Positions 25,190 through 34,140 of a stretch of 34,276 nucleotides of DNA are shown piece by piece. The DNA lies in contig CAJWTP010000010.1 in the NCBI GenBank assembly GCA_913047325.1, positions 1 to 34,276 on the forward strand. The letters run 5' to 3'. This DNA comes from an uncultured Gammaproteobacteria bacterium (GTDB lineage: Bacteria > Pseudomonadota > Gammaproteobacteria > PS1 > Pseudothioglobaceae). The position numbers were made by a program, and so were the translations under genes. Numbering within the stretch: the stretch's first letter is position 1; each line of letters begins with the position of its first letter. The notes below the pieces were generated by a model. The model ran no database searches. It worked only from the letters and a program-made list of their open reading frames with translations, and was not told the origin of the DNA.

Positions 25190-25492
25190 TTAACCCTCTA
25201 CTCTTAATAAGTAAGACACTTTATTTATCATTCCCCTTACTTCGGCTGTATCTTGCAGTTCAACTGTATGGTTAATTCGCTTTAATCCTAGACCAGCTAT
25301 GGTAGCGCGATGCGAAGGTAAACGACCATTAAAACTTTTAACCAAAGTCACACTAACTGTCGGCTTCTTAGCTGGTGCTTTTTTAGTCTCAGCCTTTGCT
25401 GTTGTAGCTTTCTTTGCTTCAGTTTTTGCTGTAGTTTTCTTAGCAGGCGCTTTTTTTGGCGCCGCTTTTTTTTCTACTTTCTCTTCAGCCAT
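25190..25492 (-). CDS. rpmD: 50S ribosomal protein L30 with Lys/Ala-rich N-terminal extension
   Basis: L30 is a small 50S protein; the usual bacterial form is about 60 aa. Here the core begins at about residue 45 ([20 protein letters not shown]) and ends LLRVEG, while residues 1-44 are an added Lys, Ala and Thr-rich segment with 15 lysines and the unit KKAPAKK at 13-19 and again at 37-43. I start at the ATG at 25492, which overlaps the rpsE TGA by one base; a GTG just before it is less likely. The extension resembles histone H1-like basic tails and is probably disordered. It does not disrupt the reading frame, and its position in the spc operon is standard. Confidence 0.95.
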
Positions 25493-31988: not shown

Positions 31989-32279
31989 CTAAGAAGCGCT
32001 AACGTCAATCATCTGACCTTCAGATACTTTGACGACTGCTTTTTTCCAATTAACACGACGACCAACTTTACCTTTAAAGATTTTTTTCTTACCTTTAACA
32101 TTTGAAGTAGTAACGCCCTCAACCTTAACACCAAATAAAGTTTCAACTGCAGCACTAATTTCTCTCTTATTACTGTCAGTTCTTACTTTGAAAACGTACT
32201 GATTATTCGCTGTAGACAATGTAGTTTTTTCAGAAACAATTGGCCCAAGTAAAACTTTTAATACCTTCTCTTGATTCAT
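31989..32279 (-). CDS. rplW: 50S ribosomal protein L23
   Basis: L23 surrounds the exit tunnel and docks trigger factor and SRP. The 96-aa protein contains [40 protein letters not shown] and [17 protein letters not shown]. Its ATG overlaps the rplD stop by four bases (ATGA), so the two are probably translationally coupled. Confidence 0.97.
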
Positions 32280-32890
32280 AGCATTGCCTCAACTTTTTTT
32301 AGTGCAGCTTTAGTCATAACAACATTTTCATATCCAATAAGACTCACAGGATCAATACTTTGAGTGTCACAAACACCTACATGATATAAATTACGTGAAG
32401 ATAGATATAAATTCTCATCTAGCTCGTCAGTCATTAATAAAGCATCTTTGACTTCTAGAGATTTCATCAAAGAAGTGATATTTTTTGTTTTTGGTTCGTT
32501 GACATCGAACTCTGACACGACCTTTAAACGGTCAGTACGTATCAATTCTGAAAAGATAACACTGATTGCACCTTTGTACATTTTCTTATTTACTTTTTGA
32601 GTAAAGTTACGAGGCTGCGCAGCAAAAGTAACTCCACCACTCCTCCAAATAGGACTTCTTGTGGTACCCGCACGAGCACGACCTGTGCCTTTTTGTTTCC
32701 ATGGTTTTTTACCGCCACCACTAACTTCTGAACGATTCTTTTGCGCCTTAGAACCACTTCTACCAGTTGCCATATAAGCTGTAGTAATTTGATGAACCAA
32801 TGATTCATTGTAGTCACGATTAAAAACAACGTCAGACACCTCTTGCGAAGTGGACTTGTTTGTCTTTAAATTTAATACCTTTACTTTCAT
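32276..32890 (-). CDS. rplD: 50S ribosomal protein L4
   Basis: L4 has a loop reaching into the exit tunnel and, in E. coli, represses the S10 operon. The 204-aa protein has the tunnel loop region [20 protein letters not shown] and [20 protein letters not shown]. The usual leader target upstream of rpsJ appears to be absent here, so L4 feedback may not work in the E. coli manner. Confidence 0.97.
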
Positions 32891-32914: not shown

Positions 32915-33811
32915 TTATTTGTCCTCAGTTTCTTCTTTTTCGTCAGCCTCATTTTCAGTTTCATCTGACTCAGTTTCTACTGCTTCTATAGCTTCTACAG
33001 CTTCTATTTTTGTTTCTACAGGAGCTTCTTCAGCTGCTGCATCTATAGTGGCTTCTTCTACTACTGGAGCTTCTTCAGCTGCCGCTTCTGCAGCTTCTAT
33101 TGCTTGAGCTTTTGCAGCGTTTTCTTCAGCAAGCTGCTTACTAATTTGTGCATTAACACTGTTTTTTTTGTCTGATAGAATGACCTTGACAAAACCATTT
33201 TTTGCGCCTGGAATGGCACCTTTTATCAATAATAGGTTACGCTCACTATCAACTCTGAGAATCTCTAGGCATTCTTCAGTAACCTGCTCATTGCCCATCT
33301 GTCCAGCCATCTTCTTGCCTTTAAATACGCGTCCAGGTGTTTGACACTGTCCAGTAGATCCAAGAGCGCGATGTGAAAGTGAGTTTCCGTGTGTTGCATC
33401 CTGCATACTAAAATTATGACGCTTTACACCACCCTGAAAACCTTTACCTTTTGATTGACCTGTTACATTGACAAAATGTCCAGCACCGAAGATAGATACA
33501 TCAAATGCCGACATTTCTGCTAATTCTGTTTCGTTAGCTCTTATTTCCCAAAGCCCTAGGCCAATTTCCTGAGAGGCTTTAGCATAATGACCTTTTAGGG
33601 CACTACTAATTCGCCCAACTTTAGCCTGACCTTTCCTATTGTTCTTGGCACCAGTAGTAATCTGAACAGCATTGTAACCATCAGTATCGGTAGTCTTCTT
33701 TTGCACTACTCTGTTAGGTTCAATCTTAATAACACTCACAGCAGATGCCGAACCGTCATCAGACAAAAGCCTTGTCATTCCTAATTTTTGTCCTACTAAT
33801 GCAATTGCCAT
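32915..33811 (-). CDS. rplC: 50S ribosomal protein L3 with long acidic C-terminal tail
   Basis: L3 starts 50S assembly and reaches toward the peptidyl-transferase centre. Residues 1 to about 213 form a normal L3, including [20 protein letters not shown] with the Gln that PrmB methylates in E. coli, and [19 protein letters not shown]. The family normally ends near residue 210. Here about 85 more residues follow, rich in Ala and Glu. In the last 71 residues about 27 are Asp or Glu and only 4 are Lys. The unit EEAPV occurs twice (246-250 and 261-265). The reading frame is open throughout and ends before rplD, so this is a genuine extension, probably disordered. Its function is unknown. Confidence 0.95.
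33021..33082. repeat. 17-bp direct repeat inside the rplC tail
   Basis: The 17-base unit GGAGCTTCTTCAGCTGC (plus-strand sense) occurs at 33021-33037 and 33066-33082, exactly 45 bases apart, a whole number of codons. It encodes the repeated Ala/Glu/Pro unit of the L3 tail and suggests that the tail grew by in-frame duplication. Confidence 0.75.
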
Positions 33812-33828: not shown

Positions 33829-34140
33829 TTAGTTAAGTTGAATTTTGACATCAACGCCGGCTGCAAGGTCTAACTTCATTAGCGCATCTACTGTTTTATC
33901 TGTCGGACTAATAACATCCATCAATCTAACGTAAGTTCTCAATTCGTATTGATCTCTAGCATCCTTGTTAACGTGCGGAGAAGTCAACACAGTAAAACGC
34001 TCTTTCTTGGTAGGCAAAGGAATTGGCCCCCTCACACTAGCTCCTGTGCGCTTAGCTGTCTCTACAATCTCTACGGCTGATTTATCGATTAAACGATGAT
34101 CAAATGCCTTTAATTTAATTCTAATATTTTTATTGCTCAT
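33829..34140 (-). CDS. rpsJ: 30S ribosomal protein S10
   Basis: S10 is a 30S head protein that also binds NusB in transcription antitermination. The 103-aa protein begins [20 protein letters not shown] and has the signature [20 protein letters not shown] and the tail [13 protein letters not shown]. It is the first gene after tuf, preceded by a strong terminator, and leaves only about 30 bases for a leader of its own. Confidence 0.98.

Follow-up and report, generated by a model that had tools for sequence, protein, structure and literature searches.

Extensions of ribosomal proteins are described as common throughout bacteria in a study of Mycoplasma pneumoniae, where 11 of the 52 ribosomal proteins carry them and most are predicted to be disordered (PMC9534751). 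Acidic tails on or near basic RNA-binding proteins are known from other systems: Tsr2 uses a mobile acidic tail to keep the ribosomal protein eS26 off RNA and to suppress its aggregation, and in Hfq an acidic tail auto-regulates RNA binding (PMC6131548). In yeast, Rrb1 serves as a dedicated chaperone for uL3 (Rpl3), which aggregates when deregulated (PMC13034042). Among the papers listed by literature searches, none was seen to describe an acidic tail on L3, whether in SUP05 or in another bacterium. L3 is ordinarily a very basic protein that contacts rRNA directly, and no dedicated L3 chaperone is known to us from bacteria.

The DNA analyzed here (the window, 34,276 nucleotides) belongs to a marine sulfur-oxidising gammaproteobacterium of the SUP05/Thioglobus type, whose family we take to be the Thioglobaceae; the nearest named records, a scaffold of the gamma proteobacterium SCGC AB-629-P17 and an ALOHA record labelled Candidatus Thioglobus autotrophicus, are each 86% identical over the best segment. 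The window contains the S10-spc-alpha ribosomal protein operons, all on the minus strand, and an Rfam search of it matched no RNA element. Within it, rplC (32915-33811, minus strand) is an unbroken frame that starts with an ATG at 33811, ends with a stop at 32915 and encodes ribosomal protein L3 (uL3) of 298 aa. The gene is flanked, as in the S10 operon, by rpsJ (S10) upstream (33829-34140, minus strand) and rplD (L4) downstream (32276-32890, minus strand), both identified by open reading frame and family model, with the rplD start 24 bases past the L3 stop. The family model TIGR03625 matches residues 5-210 (E 1.1e-72; 244.1 bits against a curated cut-off of 142.9; model positions 2-201 of 202), with the ordinary L3 body at 33182-33799 (minus strand), and this match and the position between S10 and L4 place the protein in the bacterial L3 (uL3) family.

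The L3 model stops at residue 210 of 298, leaving 88 residues past it, and aligned gammaproteobacterial L3 proteins end at window residue 217 or a few residues beyond, so that some 80-88 residues are extra, in line with the roughly 85 residues given in a preliminary description made from the sequence. The 209-aa L3 chain shared by 691 entries (10qm_L), which judging by entry titles is presumably E. coli L3, matches query residues 3-205 with 11 residues left over, whereas the window L3 reaches 298. The C-terminus thus lies more than 20 residues past the E. coli end, which is how terminal extensions are defined in PMC9534751. Separately, the L3 body contains a seven-residue insertion, NNRKGQA (residues 57-63; 33623-33643), present in eight of eight aligned Thioglobaceae rows and in none of the eight other gammaproteobacterial rows aligned.

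The extension is strongly acidic and rich in Ala and Glu, as first described: its last 70 residues (229-298) hold 27 D/E against four K/R, together with 19 Ala. For L3 cut at the conserved Pro-Gly the calculated pI is 9.63, and with the extension included it is 5.14 (net charge -11), a basic RNA-binding core followed by an acidic, low-complexity terminal tail, which is the composition of tails of the Tsr2 and Hfq type. The 45-base in-frame duplication that had been reported for the tail DNA was overstated. No clean duplication was found: the match at 45-base spacing is confined to a 29-base repeat (33016-33044 and its partner 33061-33089, minus strand; 26 of 29 bases identical), and over their whole length the 45-base units share just 28 of 45 bases. 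Positions 32975-33006 (minus strand) hold a further, imperfect tandem repeat of 9 bases that encodes VEA/IEA units.

Structure prediction divides the extension further. An AlphaFold2 model of L3 built with 16 sequences, weak overall (mean pLDDT 54, pTM 0.40), places a helix at residues 217-246 (33074-33163, minus strand; mean pLDDT 87, 88 and 77 for residues 211-220, 221-230 and 231-240) and gives pLDDT below 50 for the acidic, repeat-rich residues 247-298 (32918-33073, minus strand), which are predicted to be disordered. A fold search with this model yielded, among the matches listed, only ordinary L3 chains and nothing new for the tail, at TM-scores that are low because the model is poor. 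Since the KK..N..SK start of the helix is common across the Thioglobaceae, both in the tail comparison and in the alignment, and residues 247-298 have low pLDDT, the extension is probably made up of a family-wide short helix followed by an acidic, disordered tail specific to a subclade.

We searched the genus, family and order for relatives; family and order yielded one identical set of 83 genomes, L3 was matched in 69, and tails were counted in the 65 genomes in which the L3 C-terminus lies inside the contig. The number of residues past the last conserved Pro-Gly ranges from 19 to 173 (median 43) and is at least 25 in 64 of these 65 genomes, while 16 of them have a net charge of -5 or lower over this stretch. 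Other gammaproteobacteria have 13-20 residues past the Pro-Gly in rows where this could be measured, and 66 of their L3 proteins, drawn from a scan of named genomes as a best-hit sample (best 80 of 561 loci), are 212-217 aa long with pI 9.46 to 10.71. A class-wide search matched 258 of 276 genomes and, among the matches listed, none outside the family passes query residue 226 without a stop. A quick-method tree built from 74 L3 core rows, in which 34 of the 71 inner branches stay open, places the window in a subclade of 18 genomes (SH-aLRT 96). Fourteen of these have complete L3 ends, 13 of which, including those of separately named records (L022 and L089), keep the acidic frame and carry 57-105 residues past the Pro-Gly with net charge -6 to -19. 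The nearest short-tailed group, from the same genus (G011, G025, G026), has 43 residues at net 0 to +1, and most Thioglobaceae outside the subclade have a shorter, nearly neutral extension; further long tails occur in G031 (173 residues, net -24) and G053 (137 residues, net -6). Alignment with relatives, which the preliminary description had suggested, thus indicates a lineage-specific C-terminal extension of Thioglobaceae L3 that varies in form and is family-wide in its short version, with the long acidic tail marking the window's subclade, where it appears to have lengthened through in-frame repeat growth. The repeat units vary by species and the acidity stays (for example ETEAVETEVV, VETPVVEAEA and EEAAPV), and comparison of the acidic part within the subclade showed no conserved linear motif.

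The sole exception among the 14 complete ends is G007 (L014), in which the L3 frame stops after residue 236 and the acidic tail goes on in another frame; this tail is frame-broken, either in the assembly or in nature. The start region of L30 in the same genome likewise appears frame-shifted, and the two shifts together make assembly errors in low-complexity DNA likely.

Selection on the tail was examined as dN/dS in 21 hand-chosen close pairs. Ten pairs allowed 40 or more tail codons to be compared, and in all of them tail dN/dS is below one (0.08 to 0.5; core 0.02 to 0.17); the other 11 pairs offer 9-30 tail codons, too short to judge, with tail dS of zero in two, and alignments of long tails contain gaps in most cases. 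Across six groups, with differences counted against the first row, charge reversals make up three of 76 tail differences against 11.4% expected from weighted single-base changes, and D/E exchanges ten of 76 against 5.7%; because the rows of a group depend on one another and three of the groups lie outside the acidic subclade, these counts are at most suggestive. The L3 tail is encoded, in frame, constrained, acidic and fast-changing in sequence.

The phylum was also sampled more widely, with L3 found in 135 of 140 genomes, and 20 genomes, picked mainly for long L3 frames and presumably for the most part Alphaproteobacteria, were fetched. All 20 encode L3 proteins of at least 230 aa, and six (L226, L227, L229, L231, L234 and L235) have C-terminal, Ala/Glu-rich tails like that of the window, with net charge -10 to -16 over 74-103 residues past the conserved Pro-Gly. 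They differ from it in the sequence adjacent to the core (e.g., GWLLVRDAVK), in a whole-protein pI of 6.4 to 9.2 rather than 5.1, and in their L30, which is ordinary in these genomes and extended in the window. Acidic L3 tails are therefore recurrent in Pseudomonadota, and the original characterization of the tail as unusual holds within the gammaproteobacteria, where the 66 other proteins are short and basic, and gives way to "recurrent" at the level of the phylum.

The other ribosomal proteins of the window were scanned with family models (L3, L30 and 24 others, together with RpoA; L36 left out), and only L3, 88 residues past its model, and L30, 46 residues before its model, exceed the model ends by more than 20 residues, followed by S3 with 20 and L17 with 14. 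By family model and comparison with relatives, L30 carries a basic, K/A-rich N-terminal extension of 44 aa with net charge +10 (25361-25492, minus strand), which is similar to histone H1-like segments, with weak HC2 and Rv3852-family matches. An L30 extension of 17-83 residues is present in most Thioglobaceae (counting starts inside the contig and leaving out G007), and in genus g9 it is just four residues in ten of 11 genomes with L30. Outside the window's class, L266 (G409) has a Lys/Ala-rich N-terminal L30 extension of about 43 residues, so the L30 extension is recurrent too. In the scan of the window, L14 shows no complementary extension, and by frame length none was found in the genus for L19 (27 genomes with a match of 29 searched) or L13 (20 of 29). 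Two L19 matches in G006, with a listed contamination of 6%, and two L30 matches of equal score on one contig in G016 are probably binning or assembly effects.

We tentatively propose that the tail might act as a tethered polyanion that shields the RNA-binding surfaces of L3 before assembly, a reading that we regard as possible though short of probable. The acidic tail would cover, in cis, the RNA-binding surface of unassembled L3; once the protein is in the ribosome, rRNA would outcompete the tail, which would then be free in solvent. Such a role would require of the tail a net charge and a rough length and nothing more, and fast turnover of sequence with acidity kept would follow from this. 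Consistent with shielding are the drop in calculated pI (9.63 to 5.14), the acidic frame in 13 of 14 subclade ends, the tail dN/dS below one and the few charge reversals, as well as the disorder predicted for residues 247-298 and the lack of complementary extensions in L13, L14 and L19. The precedents of Tsr2 and Hfq and the differently sequenced acidic tails in other Pseudomonadota would, by analogy, point the same way, and the dedicated chaperone and the aggregation of yeast uL3 make protection of L3 a plausible need. Against it, core charge does not follow tail charge by eye (genus g5, for instance, has a core of +6 to +11 and a tail of +1 to +5), the AlphaFold2 model is poor, and the acidic part is not generally needed, since most Thioglobaceae outside the subclade manage with a short, near-neutral extension. 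That a net-acidic L3 carries its own RNA-mimicking chaperone, a device for assembly and against aggregation in cis with more than one origin in Pseudomonadota (the Thioglobaceae subclade and other lineages), is a bolder reading that we hold to be rather unlikely.

About as likely as a shielding role is that the tail is a tolerated decoration, a solvent-exposed terminus grown by repeat slippage, weakly selected and of no positive use; the closeness of the downstream L4 gene and the harm done by a hydrophobic or basic tail would keep it in frame. The wide range of lengths across the 65 genomes, the imperfect repeats with units that differ between species, the gaps in most long-tail alignments, a constraint weaker than that of the core and the loss of the tail to a frame break in G007 all agree with mere tolerance, which sits less well with dN below dS in all ten longer comparisons, the persistence of an acidic tail in all but one of 14 subclade genomes, the paucity of charge reversals and the acidic L3 tails of other Pseudomonadota. 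A role in docking, in which the tail would attract a basic protein or factor to the solvent-facing side of the 50S subunit or alter the spacing of neighbouring ribosomes, seems to us distinctly improbable. The terminal position and high charge density of the tail would suit it, and poly-glutamate added to S6 by RimK shows that acidic tails of ribosomal proteins can change translation (PMC7343187), but the acidic part shows no conserved linear motif in the subclade and L13, L14 and L19 offer no complementary extension. The preliminary description suggested that the tail might attract factors or repel RNA. As the sequence turns over between species and the sign of the charge stays, a specific docking site would suit the charge and the predicted disorder less well than repulsion or mimicry of RNA.

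The remaining alternatives carry far less weight. Co-evolution of the acidic L3 tail with the basic L30 extension as charge-paired tails that bind within or between ribosomes is very unlikely, even though both occur in the same genomes, their lengths correlate (Spearman 0.60 in 61 genomes; of 75 with L30, 14 were set aside because an end was cut, open or missing or because of the G007 frame) and r is 0.32 in independent contrasts (sign-flip p 0.011). The signs of these contrasts agree in only 22 of 43, the correlation inside genera reaches p<0.05 in one of five, and in the six non-gammaproteobacterial genomes whose L3 tails reach net -10 or below (G477, G465, G428, G368, G462 and G442) L30 is ordinary and starts 2-7 residues ahead of the core, an alternative start 72 residues upstream being also present in G368. 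Among the 20 Pseudomonadota with long L3 frames, the one comparable L30 extension (G409) is found with an L3 tail of +1. We therefore do not favour a coupled L3-L30 pair, on the contrast signs and on the normal L30 of acidic-tailed genomes outside the gammaproteobacteria. An assembly or annotation artefact, that is, a frame error close to the normal L3 stop, had been named as what might explain the tail away; low-complexity DNA is error prone and the G007 tail is frame-broken, but 13 of 14 complete subclade ends, like the independently named records, show this reading, which together with tail dN below dS in ten of ten pairs rules out such an error in the window L3 and leaves this explanation a negligible probability.

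The L3 tail is a real ribosomal-protein decoration and not a unique one. A clade with a calculated net-acidic L3 offers a natural test of how much charge change an rRNA binder tolerates, and also of whether bacteria use acidic tails as chaperones built into the protein; should the tail be no more than tolerated, it would exemplify ordinary decoration of the ribosome and call for care in marker alignments that use L3. Compared with known systems, it resembles the extensions of Mycoplasma pneumoniae, which are likewise terminal and more than 20 residues long relative to E. coli, with an L3 of 287 residues in entry 7ood; disrupting those extensions reportedly alters fitness or survival (PMC9534751). 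The tail is not of the RimK type: S6 (RpsF) is also a ribosomal protein with an acidic C-terminal tail, but one added post-translationally, of about four Glu, regulated and trimmed by RimB (PMC7343187), while the long tail of L3 is encoded in the genome and mixed in composition (A/E/V/T). Rrb1 resembles the proposed role in that yeast uL3 needs protection before assembly, and differs from L3's own tail in being a separate WD-repeat protein that binds the N-terminus of uL3 (PMC13034042). It may also be likened to Tsr2 and Hfq, in which an acidic mobile tail acts on a basic RNA-binding protein, as it would in L3; Tsr2 is a separate chaperone with an experimentally established effect and Hfq is not ribosomal (PMC6131548), whereas in L3 the putative effect would come from a tail built into the ribosomal protein itself.
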